Of a DNA stretch of 64,000 nucleotides, positions 29,002-36,674 are shown in pieces (position 1 is the stretch's first letter; every line of letters starts with the position of its first letter). The position numbers and the translations under genes are program-made. This DNA is from an uncultured Bacteroidota bacterium (GTDB lineage: Bacteria; Bacteroidota; Bacteroidia; Flavobacteriales; Flavobacteriaceae), in NCBI GenBank assembly GCA_913047695.1, contig CAJWUI010000005.1, positions 1 to 64,000 of the forward strand. The letters run 5' to 3'. The notes beneath the pieces were generated by a model. The model was given only the letters and a program-made list of their open reading frames with translations, had not been told where the DNA came from and did no database searches.

Positions 29002-29613
29002 CTATCCAAATTTTTCCAAATACAAATTATAAAGATTTGAATCATTTTTTAGATCGATAAAATCATCAATATCATTTTCTATTTCTAGAAAGTAGACAGA
29101 ATCATTTTTAATTTTTTTTAATGTTTCCTCTAAAACGCGGTCTGTGCTCCAAGGAATATTTTGAAAAATTTTCTTTTTCATTTTTTTCATACCAATCAAA
29201 TAATATCCACCATCATAAGTAGGGCCAATCACAAAATCTTTATTTTCTAATACATTTCTAGCTCGAATTACCATACTCTCACTAATATTCCATAGATCGG
29301 TTCCAATTAGTATAACATTTTTATATTCTTCATTGAAGGCCCACTGAAAAGCTGATAGCATTTTATCTCCTAGATCAGATCCATTTTGAACTAAAAAATT
29401 TTTTGCTTTATCAAAAATTGATTCGATTTTTTTATTTGGTTTACTCTGAAATACAATAATATCTTGATTGTTATTTGATATATTTTTAGCTGTTTTTTTT
29501 ATTAGTTGTAGATAAACCCAATGAGATTTTTCGGATCCTATATTGTTACCAAGTCTGGTTTTAACTTTACCTTTTATAGGTGACTTTGCAAAAACCATCA
29601 ATAAGTTTTTCAT
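29002..29613 (-). CDS. TIGR04282 / DUF2064 glycosyltransferase
   Basis: A 203-residue nucleotide-diphospho-sugar transferase-fold protein: MVFAKSPIKGKVKTRLG at the N-terminus, LIGTDLWNIS and FVIGPTYDGGYYLIGMKK. It belongs to the DUF2064 group, some of which are annotated as arsenosugar-biosynthesis glycosyltransferases, while others may have cofactor roles. Its start shares one base with the trpA stop, so it is the last gene of the trp transcript. No arsM or radical-SAM arsS is in the window, so an arsenic role is uncertain. Confidence 0.82.
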   Translation of the reverse strand: MKNLLMVFAKSPIKGKVKTRLGNNIGSEKSHWVYLQLIKKTAKNISNNNQDIIVFQSKPNKKIESIFDKAKNFLVQNGSDLGDKMLSAFQWAFNEEYKNVILIGTDLWNISESMVIRARNVLENKDFVIGPTYDGGYYLIGMKKMKKKIFQNIPWSTDRVLEETLKKIKNDSVYFLEIENDIDDFIDLKNDSNLYNLYLEKFG

Positions 29614-30374
29614 TAACGTATAGAAGAAATAAATGAACCTATATTTTCCACACCTTCTTTTTCAAGAAATTTAATAAATGCTGATCCGATTATTGCTCCA
29701 CTTGAGTACTTAATGGCTGTCAAATAGGTTTCTGAATTACTTATCCCAAAACCTACAACCGTTGGTGTGGCTAGTTTCATTTTAGCTATGCGATTAAAGT
29801 AGTCTGTTTGTGTGCTCCCGAATTTATCCTTAGCACCAGTGACACTTGCACTACTAACCATATAAATAAATCCATTTGATACTTTATCAATATAGTTAAT
29901 TCTTGCCTCAGGAGTTTGTGGAGTTATCAAAAACATATTGTATAAACCATATTTTTCAAATAGGCTTTTATAATTTTCATGATAAACATCAACAGGTAGA
30001 TCAGGAATAATTAATCCGTCAATACCTATTTTTTGACAATTTTGACAAAATTTTTCGATGCCGTATTGCATCATTGGATTTAAGTAACCCATTATTACCA
30101 AGGGAATTTTAATTTTTTCACGAACATTTTCAAGTTGTGAAAAAAGTTTTTGTGTCGTCATCCCATTTTGCAGTGCTTTAGTAGAACTTTTTTGGATAGT
30201 TGGCCCATCTGCTAATGGATCAGAAAACGGAAGTCCAATTTCGACCATATCAACCCCAGAATACTCAAGTTTTTCCAAGATAGTTAATGTATCCTCTAGC
30301 TTTGGATGACCAGCTGAAAAATAGATAGACAAGAGTTTCTTGCCTTCTTTAAACTTTTTATCAATTCTATTCAT
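29613..30374 (-). CDS. trpA: Tryptophan synthase alpha subunit
   Basis: A 253-residue TIM barrel that cleaves indole-3-glycerol phosphate to indole. The catalytic residues are in VEIGLPFSDPLADGPTIQ (Glu and Asp), and VSSASVTGAKDKF forms the phosphate loop. It is the last trp gene, sharing one base with trpB upstream and one with the TIGR04282 transferase downstream. Confidence 0.97.
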   Translation of the reverse strand: MNRIDKKFKEGKKLLSIYFSAGHPKLEDTLTILEKLEYSGVDMVEIGLPFSDPLADGPTIQKSSTKALQNGMTTQKLFSQLENVREKIKIPLVIMGYLNPMMQYGIEKFCQNCQKIGIDGLIIPDLPVDVYHENYKSLFEKYGLYNMFLITPQTPEARINYIDKVSNGFIYMVSSASVTGAKDKFGSTQTDYFNRIAKMKLATPTVVGFGISNSETYLTAIKYSSGAIIGSAFIKFLEKEGVENIGSFISSIR

Positions 30375-31555
30375 TAAAGTTTGAAATAGTCTATATAAGT
30401 TGACAAATCCTTATCACCTCTACCAGAACAATTAAAAACAATTATTTCCTCTAGACCAAATTTGCGGACATCAAGAACTGCAAATGCGTGAGCTGTTTCA
30501 ATCGCTGGAATAATACCTTCGGTTTGAGATAAAGTTAGCCCCCAATCCATTGCCTCTTGATCAGGTATAGAGATAAATTCAGCCCTCTTAGATCTGAATA
30601 GATGCGCGTGCATTGGCCCTACTCCGGGATAATCTAAACCTGCTGAAATGGAGTAGGGTTCTGTAATTTGTCCATCACTGGATTGCATCAAAAGAGTTTT
30701 GCTACCGTGTATTATTCCCTCTTTGCCTAGCGCAGATGTAGCAGCACTTTGACCTGAATCAATACCCTTACCTGCAGCTTCTATTGCAATTATATTAACC
30801 CGTTCATCGTTTAAATAATGATAATATAGACCTGCAGCGTTACTACCCCCACCAACACAAGCAATGACATGGTTGGGATAGTCTCTTCCCTCTTGTTCTT
30901 CAAGTTGCCATTTTGTTTCTTCACTAATAACAGATTGAAAACGTGCAACCATATCTGGATAAGGATGAGGTCCAACTACTGAACCAATTATATAATGCGT
31001 ATCTATCGGATTGTTTATCCAGTCCCGAATTGCTTCGTTCGTTGCATCTTTGAGAGTTTTACTACCAGACTTTGCTGAACGTACCTCAGCACCTAACATT
31101 TTCATTCGAGCTACATTAGGGGCTTGCCGGTGAATATCTAATTCACCCATATATACAATGCACTCGATACCCATTAAAGCACAAACAGTCGCTGTAGCAA
31201 CACCATGTTGTCCAGCTCCTGTTTCGGCAATAATTCTATTTTTTCCAAGACGTTTTGCTAAAAGTATTTGTCCTATAGTATTGTTTACTTTATGAGCCCC
31301 TGTATGGCATAAGTCCTCTCTTTTTAAATAAATTTTTGTTTTGTATTTTTCTGATAAGCGACTTGCAAAATATAGTGGTGTGGGGCGTCCAACATAAACC
31401 TTTAAAAGATTTTCAAACTCTTTTTTAAAATCAGCTCGCCCAGTTATTTCTAAATAATTATCACGCAATTCAGCCACATTTGGATATAACATTTCTGGAA
31501 TAAAAGCCCCTCCAAAATCACCATAATATCCTTTTTCATTTACATTATAATTCAT
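30374..31555 (-). CDS. trpB: Tryptophan synthase beta subunit
   Basis: A 393-residue PLP enzyme joining indole and serine. The PLP lysine is in CHTGAHKVNN, the carboxylate loop is AETGAGQHGVATA, and GGGSNAAG binds the PLP phosphate. Length and sequence fit TrpB1. It overlaps trpF by 11 bases and trpA by 1, so the subunits are translationally coupled. Confidence 0.98.
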   Translation of the reverse strand: MNYNVNEKGYYGDFGGAFIPEMLYPNVAELRDNYLEITGRADFKKEFENLLKVYVGRPTPLYFASRLSEKYKTKIYLKREDLCHTGAHKVNNTIGQILLAKRLGKNRIIAETGAGQHGVATATVCALMGIECIVYMGELDIHRQAPNVARMKMLGAEVRSAKSGSKTLKDATNEAIRDWINNPIDTHYIIGSVVGPHPYPDMVARFQSVISEETKWQLEEQEGRDYPNHVIACVGGGSNAAGLYYHYLNDERVNIIAIEAAGKGIDSGQSAATSALGKEGIIHGSKTLLMQSSDGQITEPYSISAGLDYPGVGPMHAHLFRSKRAEFISIPDQEAMDWGLTLSQTEGIIPAIETAHAFAVLDVRKFGLEEIIVFNCSGRGDKDLSTYIDYFKL

Positions 31556-32162
31556 ACAATTCCTTTTTAAAAAATTTTAATTTATCAATATTTTTTTTTG
31601 CAGGTGAAATTTCAAATTTACTATTTACATCAATAGCATATATTGGTAATTGAGAATTTAAAAATTTTTTGATTTGATCTATGTTTTCTATGCCAATTCC
31701 GCCACTTAGAAAAAAGGGTTTTTGAAGTGGATAATTTTTAAGAATTTCCCAATCAAAATTTACACCGTTTCCACCTGGTAGATCTCCTTTTGTGTCAAAT
31801 AAAAAAAAGTCACAATTTTTTTCATAGCTTTTCAAAATTGAAAAGTTATAATTATTACTTATCGAAAATGCTTTAATTACCTCAACATTTAAGTTTTTTA
31901 TCACCTTGCAATAATCAGGTGTTTCATCACCGTGTAATTGTACTGCACTCAATTGATGTTTTACTATCATGGTTTCGATATAATCTATTGAAGCATTAAC
32001 AAAGACTCCCGTTTTTTTAATACTACCGTCTATTTTTGGAGTTTTATCAGTAACGTATCTTTCCGAAGGGGCCCAAAAAATAAAGCCAATATAGTTTGGT
32101 TTCAGCTTACAAAGCGAAGTAATGTTTTCAAACTCTCTCATGCCACAAACCTTTAATTTCAT
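31545..32162 (-). CDS. trpF: Phosphoribosylanthranilate isomerase
   Basis: A 205-residue TIM barrel, step 3 of tryptophan synthesis. LKVCGMREFENI carries the catalytic Cys, FVNASIDYI and AVQLHGDE follow, and LSGGIGIENI forms the phosphate site. It overlaps trpC by four bases (ATGA) and trpB by 11. Confidence 0.95.
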   Translation of the reverse strand: MKLKVCGMREFENITSLCKLKPNYIGFIFWAPSERYVTDKTPKIDGSIKKTGVFVNASIDYIETMIVKHQLSAVQLHGDETPDYCKVIKNLNVEVIKAFSISNNYNFSILKSYEKNCDFFLFDTKGDLPGGNGVNFDWEILKNYPLQKPFFLSGGIGIENIDQIKKFLNSQLPIYAIDVNSKFEISPAKKNIDKLKFFKKELYEL

Positions 32163-32944
32163 TGTGTAATTTTTTTGATAAAATCTTTAGCTGTATTCCC
32201 AGGGTGATCTGATTTCATGAAGTTTTCACCAATTAAAAAACCTTTGTAGCCGAGTTCTATTAATTCTTTTATACTATTAGGATCACTTATTCCGCTCTCT
32301 GATACTTTTAAAAACTGGTCAGGTATTTTTTCTGCTAAACTTCTGCTTGTCTCTAATGAGACTTCAAAGGTTTTTAGATTCCTATTGTTGACTCCAAATA
32401 AATTAATTGTTGGTATAATTGACTTTTCGATTTCTTCAAGGTTATGAACCTCCAATAATACTTCTAAGCCTAAGTTGTTTGCTAGAGACGAAAAATTCTT
32501 AATTTCATTTTTAGATAATACCGCTGCAATAAGAAGAATAACGTCAGCTCCATTAGCTTTGGCTTCAATTATTTGGTATTCGTCAATAACAAAGTCTTTT
32601 CTAAGAAGAGGTAAACTAATTATTGATCTTGAAAGAATTAAATCCTCGAGAGACCCACTAAAATATTTTCCATCAGTTAAAACAGACATTCCACTCACAC
32701 CGGCGTCCTCATACTCTTTAGCAACTTTAGTTACAGAAAGAGAACTATTAATATTTTTTTTTGAAGGGGAACGACGTTTGAATTCTGCGATAATACCAAA
32801 ATCATTAATCTTAATTTTCTTTACAAGCGAGTTACAATGCCTTTCAAAAAGAGGAGATGTTTCTAAATAAGAGATTGGAAGTAATTTTTTTTTCTGAATC
32901 ACTTCAACTTTTTTGTCAGCTACTATTTTATTGAGAATATTCAT
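32159..32944 (-). CDS. trpC: Indole-3-glycerol-phosphate synthase
   Basis: A 261-residue TIM barrel that ring-closes CdRP into indole-glycerol phosphate. IIAEFKRRSPSKK carries the catalytic Glu and Lys, LLRKDFVIDEYQI the second Lys, and VNNRNLKTFEV and VSESGISDPNSI follow. It is a separate gene, not fused to trpF as in enterics. It overlaps trpD by four bases. Confidence 0.96.
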   Translation of the reverse strand: MNILNKIVADKKVEVIQKKKLLPISYLETSPLFERHCNSLVKKIKINDFGIIAEFKRRSPSKKNINSSLSVTKVAKEYEDAGVSGMSVLTDGKYFSGSLEDLILSRSIISLPLLRKDFVIDEYQIIEAKANGADVILLIAAVLSKNEIKNFSSLANNLGLEVLLEVHNLEEIEKSIIPTINLFGVNNRNLKTFEVSLETSRSLAEKIPDQFLKVSESGISDPNSIKELIELGYKGFLIGENFMKSDHPGNTAKDFIKKITQ

Positions 32945-33954
32945 TCTTTACTAATATTTTGAAGTTTATTAAGTGCTTCAAATGCTTTTCCTGATACCAA
33001 AGATTCTTTTGCCAACTTAAAACCCTCAATTGGAGAAAGATCTAAGGCAGTGGTAATAGCCATACCAGCATTTGCACAAACTACGTTTTCTTGTGATTTA
33101 GTACCCTTGTTTTGTAATACATCTATAAAAATTTTAGCTGATGATTTAACATTATTTCCACCTTGAATAGATTTTGCTTTTATTTGTTCTGTACCAAAAT
33201 CTTTGGCTGTGATTAATTTTTCAAAATCATTTCCAATTGCTTTTACAGGACTCGTTAAAGAAATTTCATCATATCCGTCTAGGGAGTAAATAATGGTAAA
33301 ATTTATATTGGTTTTTTGTAATAGGTAATTATAAAGACGGGCTAGTTCAAGATTAAAAACTCCGGTTAGTTGATTTTTAGGAGAACATGGATTGACTAGT
33401 GGTCCAAGCATATTAAAAAATGTTTTCAAACCTAGCTCCTTGCGAACGGGCCCAACATTTTTCATAGCAGGATGAAATAAAGGGGCATGAAGAATACATA
33501 TTCCAGCCTTCTCTAAACAACGTTTTAAAAAGTCTTTATTATTGGAAAATTTAATTTCTAAGGCTTCGAGTACATTACTAGAACCGCATCCTGAGGAAAC
33601 CCCGTAATTTCCATGTTTTGTAACCTTTATTCCAGCTCCTGCAGTTACAAACGAGGATAATGTTGAAATATTAAAAGTATCCTTACCATCACCACCTGTA
33701 CCACACAAATCTATTGTGTCAAATTCACTTAAGTCTACTGAAATGCATAATTCGAGTAGTGCCTCTCGAAAACCTTCAAGCTCTTCAAGGCTAATATTTC
33801 GCATCATAAAGACAGTTAGAAAAGAAGCAATTTGTGAGTTATTATATTTGCCTTCAGCAATATTAGTGATTATCTCTTTAGCCTCATTTTTACTAAGGGA
33901 TTCATAGTTCGTAAGTCTTTTAAGAGTAGTTTTCATACCTAACTTTTTATCCAA
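32941..33954 (-). CDS. trpD: Anthranilate phosphoribosyltransferase
   Basis: A 337-residue transferase adding phosphoribosyl to anthranilate. The PRPP loop is DLCGTGGDGKDTFNIST (about residue 83), KHGNYGVSSGCGSSNVLEAL follows, and GPVRKELGLKTFFNMLGPLVNP contains the anthranilate site. It overlaps trpG by 16 bases. A start at M7 (33936), after the trpG stop, would also fit. Confidence 0.96.
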   Translation of the reverse strand: MDKKLGMKTTLKRLTNYESLSKNEAKEIITNIAEGKYNNSQIASFLTVFMMRNISLEELEGFREALLELCISVDLSEFDTIDLCGTGGDGKDTFNISTLSSFVTAGAGIKVTKHGNYGVSSGCGSSNVLEALEIKFSNNKDFLKRCLEKAGICILHAPLFHPAMKNVGPVRKELGLKTFFNMLGPLVNPCSPKNQLTGVFNLELARLYNYLLQKTNINFTIIYSLDGYDEISLTSPVKAIGNDFEKLITAKDFGTEQIKAKSIQGGNNVKSSAKIFIDVLQNKGTKSQENVVCANAGMAITTALDLSPIEGFKLAKESLVSGKAFEALNKLQNISKE

Positions 33955-34502
33955 TTTTCTAATATTTTTTTTCCATTGGGAGTTAAGACTGATTCAGGAT
34001 GGTATTGAACAGATCTAATATCATAAGTTTTGTGTCTTAAAGACATAAGATGCCCTTCATCATCAAAAGATGTAGCTATCAATTCATTTGGTAATGGAGT
34101 AGCGACTACCCATGAATGGTATCGACCTATTTCAAACTTTTTTGGTAAGTCTTTAAAAAGTATGTCACTTTCCGATATAGTTACAGAAGTTGAAATGCCA
34201 TGGTAAACTTTTTTCATATTTACAAGGGTTGCACCAAAAACCTCACCAATTGCCTGCTGTCCTAGACATATCCCTAGTATTTTTTTTGTTGGAGCATAAT
34301 GTCGAATGGCTTCTTTTAATAAACCAGATTCATCTGGTATTCCAGGACCGGGAGATAAAAGAATTAATGGATATTCTTCAATTTCATCAAGTTTGAATTC
34401 ATCATTACGTTTTACAGTAACATTACCATCAAGCTCTTTCAGATAATGAACAAGATTATATGTAAAGGAGTCGTAATTATCTATAACAAAAACTTTTTTC
34501 AT
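33939..34502 (-). CDS. trpG: Anthranilate synthase component II (glutaminase)
   Basis: A 187-residue class-I glutamine amidotransferase providing ammonia to TrpE. LSPGPGIPDESGL forms the oxyanion region, GICLGQQAIGE has the nucleophile Cys, and VQYHPESVLT the catalytic His and Glu. It lies 3 bases after trpE. Similar proteins may be shared with folate synthesis, but no pab gene is nearby. Confidence 0.95.
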   Translation of the reverse strand: MKKVFVIDNYDSFTYNLVHYLKELDGNVTVKRNDEFKLDEIEEYPLILLSPGPGIPDESGLLKEAIRHYAPTKKILGICLGQQAIGEVFGATLVNMKKVYHGISTSVTISESDILFKDLPKKFEIGRYHSWVVATPLPNELIATSFDDEGHLMSLRHKTYDIRSVQYHPESVLTPNGKKILENWIKS

Positions 34503-34505
34503 TAA

Positions 34506-35906
34506 TCAAATTTTTTCTGCTTGTAACAAAGCTTTGTCTAAAGCACCTAACTTATTATATACTTCTTGCAATTCATTTTCTGGTACAGAAGCTGCTACAA
34601 TACCTGCTCCAGCTTGATAATGCAATCTATTGTTCATACTCAAAAATGATCGTATGATTATTGCATGGTTAAAATTTCCATAGAAGTCCATATATCCAAT
34701 TGCTCCACCGTAAAAATTTCGTTGTGTTTTTTCATATTTATCTATAAGTTGAAGTGCTTTATGCTTTGGAGCTCCACTTAAAGTACCTGCAGGAAATGTG
34801 TCTGCTACTACTCTAAATGTCTTGGCTGAATCTTTCATAGTGCATGTAACTTTAGAAACTAGATGTATTACATGCGAAAAAAATTGAATCTCACGATTTT
34901 TTTCTACCAAAACATTTGAACCGTTTCTACTCAAGTCGTTTCTGGCTAAATCGACTAACATTACATGCTCACTATTTTCTTTTGGATCTTTGGCTAATTC
35001 TTTAGCTGCTCGTGTATCTTTTAGGTCATTACCTGTTCTTCGGAAAGTACCAGCAATAGGATGAATTTCGGCTTTTCCATTATCAACAATTAATTGAGCT
35101 TCTGGTGAACTTCCAAATATCTTGAAATATCCATAGTCGAAAAAAAATAGATAAGGTGATGGATTTATGGAACGAAGAGTTCTATATACATTAAATTCGT
35201 CACCTTTAAATTGTTGTGAAAATTGACGAGATAATACTAGTTGAAATACATCTCCTCTGTAGCAATGTTCTTTTCCTTTTTTTACAAAATCTATAAATTC
35301 TGAATCTGTTAGATTAGAAGATTTTTCTCCAACTTTTTCAAATTTGAAGGGAGTACTAATTTGAGAATTTAATAAGTTTTCTATCTCATTTAAATTATGA
35401 TCACCATCATAAGTATTAGAAAATAAATAGGCTTCATGATTAAACAAACTTATGGCAATAATATTTTCATATACAGCATAATACATGTCAGGTATATTTA
35501 TTCCGGTTTTATTTCTATCTAGTTTGATTTTATCAAAACGCTCAACAGCTTCATGAGCGATAAATCCAAAAACACCATTATTAATGAATTCAAAGGGTAG
35601 TTTTTCACTTTTAAATTGAGTTGAGAATTCATGAACGCGTTCAGGAATATCAATTGACTCGTCTACTTCCTCAATTATTGAACTTTTGTCAGGAAAATTA
35701 GTTGTTAATTTTTTATTTTTTAATTCAATTGAGGCAATGGGATTACAGCATATGTATGAAAAGTTTTTGTTATTTGAAGAATAATCACTACTCTCAAGAA
35801 GTAGGGAATGTGGAAATACATCTCTCACTTTCAGATAAACATTTACTGGTGTAATTGTATCTGCTAGGATTTTTCTAAATACTGTTTTTAAAGAATAAAT
35901 TTTCAT
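34506..35906 (-). CDS. trpE: Anthranilate synthase component I
   Basis: A 466-residue chorismate-binding enzyme, the first committed step of tryptophan synthesis. The N-terminal part has the feedback-site LLESSD, and the C-terminal domain has VLSRQFSQQFKGDEF, IHPIAGTFRRTGNDLKDT, HVMLVDLARNDLSR and FPAGTLSGAPKHKALQLID. It heads a complete trpEGDCFBA operon. Its ATG lies 14 bases after a strong intrinsic terminator that forms the 3' part of an attenuator. Confidence 0.97.
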   Translation of the reverse strand: MKIYSLKTVFRKILADTITPVNVYLKVRDVFPHSLLLESSDYSSNNKNFSYICCNPIASIELKNKKLTTNFPDKSSIIEEVDESIDIPERVHEFSTQFKSEKLPFEFINNGVFGFIAHEAVERFDKIKLDRNKTGINIPDMYYAVYENIIAISLFNHEAYLFSNTYDGDHNLNEIENLLNSQISTPFKFEKVGEKSSNLTDSEFIDFVKKGKEHCYRGDVFQLVLSRQFSQQFKGDEFNVYRTLRSINPSPYLFFFDYGYFKIFGSSPEAQLIVDNGKAEIHPIAGTFRRTGNDLKDTRAAKELAKDPKENSEHVMLVDLARNDLSRNGSNVLVEKNREIQFFSHVIHLVSKVTCTMKDSAKTFRVVADTFPAGTLSGAPKHKALQLIDKYEKTQRNFYGGAIGYMDFYGNFNHAIIIRSFLSMNNRLHYQAGAGIVAASVPENELQEVYNKLGALDKALLQAEKI

Positions 35907-35920
35907 AAGTCCACAAAATT

Positions 35921-35951
35921 AAAAAAGGCCTGTCGTGATGACAAGCCTTTT
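35921..35951 (-). terminator. trp attenuator terminator
   Basis: Read on the minus strand, AAAAGGCTTGTC and GACAGGCCTTTT form a 12-pair stem (one G-T) around the 5-base loop ATCAC, closed by a run of six T. It lies between the leader peptide and trpE. Its 5' arm and loop (35933-35942) can instead pair with 35973-35981, which includes the leader stop codon, giving an antiterminator. Confidence 0.9.
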
Positions 35952-35973
35952 GAAATAGTAATATTAGATTTCG

Positions 35974-36033
35974 TCACACGAGAATTTGTTGCTTCGCGTA
36001 CCACCAGCTAATATTGCAAATAAAATTTTTCAT
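35974..36033 (-). CDS. trpL: trp operon leader peptide with tandem Trp codons
   Basis: A short ORF reads MKNFICNISWWYAKQQILV and stops with TGA, 19 residues long. Residues 10-11 are adjacent Trp codons (TGG TGG). The bases directly after them (TACGCGA, 35994-36000) can pair with the region of the stop codon (TCGTGTG), and that same region can pair with the 5' side of the downstream terminator. This is the region 1-2-3-4 plan of ribosome-mediated attenuation: stalling at Trp codons would free region 2 to build the antiterminator. It was too short for routine gene calling. The peptide itself has no function expected beyond being translated. Confidence 0.88.
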   Translation of the reverse strand: MKNFICNISWWYAKQQILV

Positions 36034-36037
36034 TAAA

Positions 36038-36045
36038 CAAATATA
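36038..36045 (-). promoter_or_regulatory. Candidate -7 promoter element of the trp operon (TATATTTG)
   Basis: An exact TAnnTTTG match on the minus strand, ending four bases before the trpL ATG. If used, transcription would begin at or within a few bases of the ATG, so the leader mRNA would be leaderless or nearly so. No clear -33 TTTG lies 19-21 bases upstream. Confidence 0.4.
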
Positions 36046-36113: not shown

Positions 36114-36674
36114 TTAAAAATAAAGGCTGACTTCTAATTCGATATCGTCGTAAATAAGTTTATCACCTAAATTAGAAAAAAAGCTTGATGATCTATGCTT
36201 AACATCAAATTTAGATCTATCAAAAACCATTTCTACTGTTGCACCCTCATTGTTTAGTAATAATATAAAATTAGTTGATTTTGTTATGCCTTTGATTGTT
36301 AAATCCCCTGTAACTTCATATTTTTCACTGTCAATTTTTTTTGTAGAGGTTATCTTTAATGAAGATTTGGGATATTCCTCCACTGAAAAAAAATCTTCGG
36401 AGCGCAAATGATTTTCTAGATAATCTTTGGACCTTCCAGTCAAATCCTCATTTATTAAGCTCAACATGTCAACAATGAATTCGCCGCTAACAATCTCATC
36501 GTTTTCAAACAAAATATTTCCTGATGTAAACTTTAAGGAACCATAATGGGTTTTAGTGGTAATTTCCTTTCCAGTCCATTTAATTTTGCTTAGTTGTAGG
36601 TTAATATTTTTATTTTGCCCAAATAAATAGAGGTTTGTGAAGCTTAGAAGTATAACTATAAATAACTTTTTCAT
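36114..36674 (-). CDS. YceI family periplasmic protein
   Basis: A 186-residue protein with a signal peptide (residues 1-19) and a YceI lipocalin-like barrel: SKIKWTGKEITTKTHYGSLKF at the start, FIVDMLSL in the middle and VTGDLTIKGITKSTNF near 120. YceI proteins bind isoprenoid-type lipids in the periplasm, and their role is poorly known. It is separated from the trp leader by about 80 bases on the same strand and divergent from the rhodanese gene. Confidence 0.9.
   Translation of the reverse strand: MKKLFIVILLSFTNLYLFGQNKNINLQLSKIKWTGKEITTKTHYGSLKFTSGNILFENDEIVSGEFIVDMLSLINEDLTGRSKDYLENHLRSEDFFSVEEYPKSSLKITSTKKIDSEKYEVTGDLTIKGITKSTNFILLLNNEGATVEMVFDRSKFDVKHRSSSFFSNLGDKLIYDDIELEVSLYF

Follow-up and report, generated by a model that had tools for sequence, protein, structure and literature searches.

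The tryptophan operon trpEGDCFBA lies on the minus strand of a 64,000-nucleotide stretch of DNA from an uncultured Flavobacteriaceae bacterium (contig CAJWUI010000005.1 of assembly GCA_913047695.1, positions 1 to 64,000; hereafter the window), and the arrangement of its leader indicates that it is very probably controlled by a ribosome-mediated transcription attenuator. The hallmarks of such an attenuator are present: a short open reading frame (ORF) that carries tandem Trp codons and precedes the first structural gene, an intrinsic terminator, an antiterminator just beyond the Trp codons that excludes this terminator, and a protector stem. These elements had been put forward, on the enteric plan, in an original prediction made from the window, and the comparative data presented here support them; the switching that they would permit is a prediction. 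The mechanism appears ordinary and, on comparative evidence, soundly present; its predicted leaderless start and a histidine counterpart are the parts worth following.

A -7 promoter box, TATATTTG (36038-36045, minus strand, as are all features of the leader), fits the Bacteroidota consensus TAnnTTTG and is separated by a 4-nt spacer from the ATG (36033) of the leader ORF trpL (35974-36033). This ORF encodes a peptide of 19 residues, MKNFICNISWWYAKQQILV, and ends with TGA at 35976-35974; its AUG coincides with the predicted +1. The sensor, the tandem Trp codons TGGTGG (36001-36006), is directly followed by region 1, TACGCGA (35994-36000), the protector strand, which pairs in the fold with region 2, TCGTGTGAC (35973-35981), overlapping the stop codon. 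Region 3, TTGTCATCACGA (35933-35944), comprises the upper 5' arm of the terminator, its loop and the first bases of its 3' arm, and is the partner of region 2. The terminator itself (35923-35951) is a hairpin of 12 pairs, AAAAGGCUUGUC-AUCAC-GACAGGCCUUUU, with a T-run at 35926-35921. Re-reading of the sequence and recomputation of the positions gave the same coordinates for the box, the 19-residue WW ORF and the stems as had been proposed, and refolding of the 12-pair terminator gave -16.2 kcal/mol. The antiterminator had been described as a pairing of region 2 with GTCATCACGA (35933-35942) with one bulged base; the pairing and the bulge stand, and the stem is longer than was given. With the RNA cut after CACGA, it has 11 pairs and one bulged base (TCGTG/CACGA and TGACGA/TTGTCA), and folds at -9.7 kcal/mol, three further inner pairs included. 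An antiterminator formed from the terminator loop and 3' arm only was ruled out, as folding also takes the upper 5' arm.

From these structures the following operation may be proposed. RNA polymerase would start on the A of the leader AUG or on a neighbouring base, with a ribosome translating trpL close behind. When Trp-tRNA is plentiful, the ribosome would reach the stop codon and cover region 2, and the terminator would form before trpE. When Trp-tRNA is scarce, the ribosome would stall on the WW codons and cover region 1, and the free region 2 would pair with region 3, leading to read-through. If the leader is not translated, region 1 would pair with region 2 and the terminator would form. 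The enteric trpL plan has tandem Trp codons, 1:2, 2:3 and 3:4 stems and a stop codon over region 2, and all of these are found in the window too. The window differs in having its AUG at the predicted +1, which leaves no room for a Shine-Dalgarno leader, so that trpL would have no ribosome-binding leader, unlike enteric trpL. The Rfam Trp_leader model of the enteric element gave no match in the window, either at its gathering score or at E values up to 10.

Conservation of the leader was examined by searching TrpE in 40 genomes (the window's own and 39 relatives), of which 38 gave some match. Thirty loci were fetched; in 26 of them the sequence extended to the TrpE N-terminus, and a WW leader was found upstream in 26/26, own genome included; the conservation of the WW codons in relatives, by which the original prediction had proposed to be checked, is thus observed. 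A second scan covered named genomes, as the best 80 loci among the matches listed, 77 of which had a usable upstream region (L053 and L064, with a truncated trpE, and L039, with 34 bases upstream only, were left out). The nearest of these 80 loci belongs to Bacteroidetes bacterium SCGC AAA795-G10 (97% identical). Marine Flavobacteriaceae, Candidatus Arcticimaribacter among them, come next, and then Cellulophaga, Zhouia, Flavobacterium and Allomuricauda. A WW or WWW leader was present in 74 of the 77 with an ATG start, and in L059 with a GTG start.

The geometry of the leader was compared over 104 loci with a TrpE start. The script passed over six (L022, L023 and L026, with other terminator words, L039, L063 and L105), and the remaining 98 were reduced to 82 non-redundant family leaders by removing 13 duplicates, the order-level loci L021 and L024, and L015, which contains N. 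The distance from the end of the WW codons to region 2 was 18-21 nt in 82/82, region 2 being located through a CGTG-like word, so that the count is limited to leaders with such a word, which all 82 have; the CGTG core itself is found in most. The stop codon lies -14 to +5 nt relative to the start of region 2. Taken with the size of the ribosome footprint, this fixed distance would place region 2 just outside a WW-stalled ribosome and beneath a ribosome at or near the stop codon.

The alternative pairings are conserved along with this spacing. Over the 82 leaders the antiterminator had a mean z of -2.59 (below -1 in 77 leaders and below -2 in 64), and every one keeps four or more pairs between region 2 and the terminator half; in a rigid six-pair register, six pairs are formed in 65 leaders, five in 14 and four in 3. 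Loss of the alternative stems in alignment, which had been named beforehand as a result that would speak against attenuation, was not seen for the antiterminator. Each of the eight inner pairs of the terminator is kept in 81 or 82 leaders. The terminator loop reads ATCAC in 67/82, a conservation that is expected where a loop serves as a pairing partner. The antiterminator partners are nearly invariant within the family, and support there therefore comes from conservation and pairing, not from two-sided change.

Outside the family, TrpE was searched in 149 genomes of the class, giving 47 strong places (E no higher than 1.2e-114), among them those of the own genome and L022. The 45 other places and five order-level loci (L021-L024 and L026) made a set of 50, two of which had too little upstream sequence. 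A WW or WxW leader with a terminator was found before trpE in 38 of the 48 order- and class-level loci, and a leader for which the finder used here reported no terminator in three. In L118, L119, L121, L122, L126 and L114, which belong to other families, spaced Trp codons (WRW, WLW, WCW) replace WW. Removing L021, L024, L111 and L112 from the 38 left 34 out-of-family loci, and L147 was not found by the script, so that 33 were used. Their antiterminator had a mean z of -2.23 (below -1 in 26/33 and below -2 in 18/33) and was formed from differing words, e.g. GAACAGC/GCTGTTC and GAGAAGC/GCTTCTC; as the pairing is kept with different words, the argument for an attenuator is stronger. The best pairing reaches the loop in 33/33, a count made without a separate control. 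These loci indicate that ribosome-mediated trp attenuation is common in the window's class, judged from named relatives to be Bacteroidia, and more widespread than the existing Rfam model recovers.

The protector segment of the window folds alone at -6.0 kcal/mol, and, when taken two bases shorter, at -4.7 kcal/mol with a z of -1.5 against shuffles; taken singly, it is weak evidence. Across species the pairing of region 1 (TACGCGA) with region 2, as it had been drawn for the window, is favoured both by the fold and by the leaders' own pairings, which beat permuted ones. The species-matched mean over the 82 leaders was -5.12 kcal/mol against -4.36 kcal/mol after permutation, with 0/2000 permutations as good, and for the 42 nearest leaders (trpE identity >67.45%) it was -4.33 against -3.90 kcal/mol, with 5/2000 as good; since related sequences are not independent, these figures are not strict probabilities. 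Compensated changes were seen by eye in L009 and L010 (strand base 2 T for C, partner A for G), and between L011 (TACGA/TCGTA) and L008 (CACGA/TCGTG). The protector stem thus appears supported in the clade nearest the window, and weak in Flavobacterium.

Several observations weigh against an attenuator of this kind, or against its generality. Two-sided changes of the antiterminator are rare among the 82 leaders, and its support within the family depends on the conserved region-2 word. The antiterminators of L011, L019 and L034 do not outperform shuffled sequences (z of -0.65, -0.39 and -0.32), and 7 of the 33 out-of-family leaders have a z above -1. The Flavobacterium protectors form short hairpins that do not exceed shuffles, which speaks against the protector as a universal element. 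Among the 77 named loci, L063 keeps the same terminator behind a leader with one Trp codon, and L105 has no recognisable leader before trpE. No WW or WxW leader stands directly before trpE in 7 of the 48 order- and class-level loci: three of these (L144, L150 and L151) have coding sequence before trpE, and the Rfam leader family RF01692 matches them at a distance of about 1.3 kb upstream of it, as would be expected of an operon that begins with trpB (the gene being identified by eye); three others (L123, L127 and L149) have short single-Trp ORFs by eye, and in L134 no leader was seen before trpE. Finally, when folded to completion, the terminator (-13.7 kcal/mol) beats the nascent antiterminator (-9.8 kcal/mol) even with a stalled ribosome, so that switching would have to be kinetic.

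Other explanations of the locus were weighed against attenuation. The hairpin could be merely the terminator of an upstream yceI-like gene (36114-36674), which is also on the minus strand and ends 80 bases before trpL, with the WW ORF arising by chance. Among relatives, however, the upstream gene varies (a CDGSH-like frame in several, by eye), whereas the box, the WW ORF and the terminator stay together, with the constant WW-to-region-2 spacing described above, and most class-level loci that were examined show this arrangement again; this explanation is thus extremely improbable. Chance is excluded by conservation in relatives, not by the window's protector by itself.

Sensing of Trp by other means is conceivable, as the Trp repressor, the TRAP protein and the tRNA-binding T-box are known regulators of trp genes in other organisms. 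Yet neither a Trp repressor, whose absence would be a further difference from the enteric system, nor TRAP was found in 25 genus genomes, most of them incomplete; no T-box was found in the one genome searched for it, the window's own (89% complete), nor in the window at the gathering score. We consider such sensing very unlikely. A TnaC-like arrest, in which the leader peptide would bind free tryptophan instead of responding to a lack of Trp-tRNA, would be in keeping with a short ORF that contains Trp codons and precedes an operon of Trp-related genes. In the window's genus, however, the peptide differs greatly around WW; within Flavobacterium it is rather constant (NNTWWWnNLRQTS), and its 3' codons there double as protector and region 2. 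In a biosynthetic operon, induction by excess Trp would have the wrong sign. The probability left to such an arrest is very small.

Attenuation of the kind proposed here is not new in the phylum. That it is little described there, as the original prediction supposed, holds poorly in view of the sources below, as far as their consulted parts go. Rfam RF01692 (Bacteroid-trp) is the 'Bacteroidete tryptophan peptide leader RNA' listed in Table 1 of Weinberg 2010 (PMC2864571). A 2019 paper (PMC6414381) places Bacteroid-trp upstream of the trp operon of F. psychrophilum and likens it to the E. coli trp leader, and PMC9723704 reports strong clues that operons for amino-acid biosynthesis are preceded by leader-peptide attenuators; Lopatovskaya 2010 is cited by PMC4833913. 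Judged by title and the start of the abstract, none of the matches listed from the open-licence literature dissects a three-stem switch or reports a leaderless trpL in this phylum.

RF01692 matches the window at 36052-35940, exactly on the trpL leader place, with 36.8 bits (E of 0.004-0.005), and does not reach the cut-off of 49. It passed the cut-off in 0/40 genomes (own and 39 relatives), many genus members having sub-threshold matches upstream of trpE. When 20 loci were scanned, three passed, those of Zhouia, Flavobacterium salmonis and Cellulophaga. In the class, 9/197 genomes passed, as did the control genome Bacteroides ihuae, under stricter filters and with many genomes perhaps having no trp genes; the samples and denominators of this 9/197 and of the 38/48 loci with leader and terminator differ, and the two do not give a measured ratio. 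The upstream place of the trp operon is orthologous, and the AUG, UGGUGG and 5' arm GGCUUGUC of the model align with the window; WWW, the CGTG strand and the terminator stem are common to the three passing leaders and the window's clade. In contrast, the window breaks roughly ten of the 24 base pairs of the model (NC line, by eye), and the model ends at the terminator 5' arm, including neither terminator nor antiterminator. The Rfam hairpin was not retained as a working structure, many of its pairs being non-standard in the window and other pairings better supported. A match to Atu_C9 (20.2 of 40 bits, opposite strand) was taken as chance. The window thus represents a branch missed by the existing family model, and what is added here is the complete three-stem switch absent from that model, a predicted leaderless start and a parallel His leader.

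The start of trpL was examined through the spacing of the -7 box. In F. johnsoniae (PMC6847099, part consulted, from which the Bacteroidota consensus TAnnTTTG was also taken), many predicted starts lie 4-5 nt downstream of the -7 box, and leaders longer than 10 nt make up 87% of those predicted; 5.5% of F. psychrophilum mRNAs are given as leaderless (PMC9723704), and about 3.7% of B. thetaiotaomicron 5' untranslated regions as shorter than 10 nt (PMC7366714). ATG ORFs with 150 codons or more number 49 in the window, and one of them has a box 3-8 nt upstream. Among the 43 leaders with trpE identity >67.45%, the box spacer is 4-6 nt in 42 (40 ATG and 2 GTG starts), and in the remaining one, L041, the contig ends at the box site; in these 42 of 43, the start codon would lie no more than 2 nt from the predicted +1, so that they are predicted to be leaderless. 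In the other 40 family leaders (L025, a genus member, among them), the spacer is 4-5 nt in 11 and 16-20 nt in 29, with none between. An exact box within 45 nt was found in 28 of 41 order- and class-level leaders, at 4-8 nt in 15, 9-13 nt in 7 and 18-33 nt in 6. The smallest spacer was taken throughout, which biases toward short values. Near-leaderless trpL starts, as predicted from the box, are recurrent, not universal. A precedent is found in Sinorhizobium meliloti, where the RNA begins with the trpL ATG and trpLE(G) is described as being without transcription repression (PMC7298713, part consulted); the phylum and the sequence are unrelated to those of the window, and trans-acting roles are reported there for rnTrpL.

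In part of the genus (L007, L012, L017 and others), the trpL promoter is flanked by an inverted repeat of 12 bases, ATTATTGTTCGG / CCGAACAATAAT, whose second half lies inside leader codons; the repeat is absent from the window and could be an operator. As the mark of a regulon it was rejected, the exact pattern of its 9-base core occurring in 3/25 genus genomes, each time at trpL only.

A parallel leader precedes hisG. A hisG match was obtained in 23/25 genus genomes and 24 loci were fetched (L203 being a second, partial one); a His leader with 3-4 His codons lies 5-8 nt past a -7 box before hisG in 23/23 genomes (L180-L202). In the window's own genome (L198; G000:C1 near 364115-364579, minus strand), the near-leaderless His peptide is MKTLLHHIHQFENCSNEK. 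The terminator, AACCCGTTTGA...TCAAACGGGTT, is conserved, and a TCAAACG-like strand around the SNE codons is complementary to the CGTTTGA of the terminator and pairs with it (mean z -3.4). The Rfam his-leader model gave no match in the three hisG loci scanned (E up to 0.5), and in the own genome simple scans and inspection by eye revealed no combination of box, short leader and terminator upstream of thrA or ilvD. Whether translation of trpL and hisL in Bacteroidia typically uses leaderless or nearly leaderless transcripts, promoter and start codon being fused, appears to us evenly balanced. If so, the first ribosome would load as the RNA emerges. This would be a device dedicated to coupling, in a phylum whose mRNAs have no Shine-Dalgarno sequences and are seldom leaderless. 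The predicted start poses the question of how translation is coupled to transcription early enough for attenuation without a Shine-Dalgarno sequence.

Downstream of the attenuator, trpE (34506-35906, minus strand, ATG at 35906; Pfam Anth_synt_I_N and Chorismate_bind) is followed in order by trpG, trpD, trpC, trpF, trpB and trpA (29613-34502, minus strand), identified from ORFs and Pfam matches, the names of trpG, trpD and trpB being given with the help of gene order. The operon is complete and contiguous, with genes adjoining or partly overlapping, down to 29613. A second -7-like box, TAATTTTG (35914-35921, minus strand), overlaps the end of the T-run and lies 7 nt before the trpE ATG; boxes of this type occur also in L002, L003, L005, L032, L034 and L036, are not general among relatives, and could represent an attenuator-independent promoter. 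The leader of L063, MKLNFNKKYWLESLN (by eye), has one Trp codon and retains the terminator and the CGTGA strand; it is a natural variant of the sensor.
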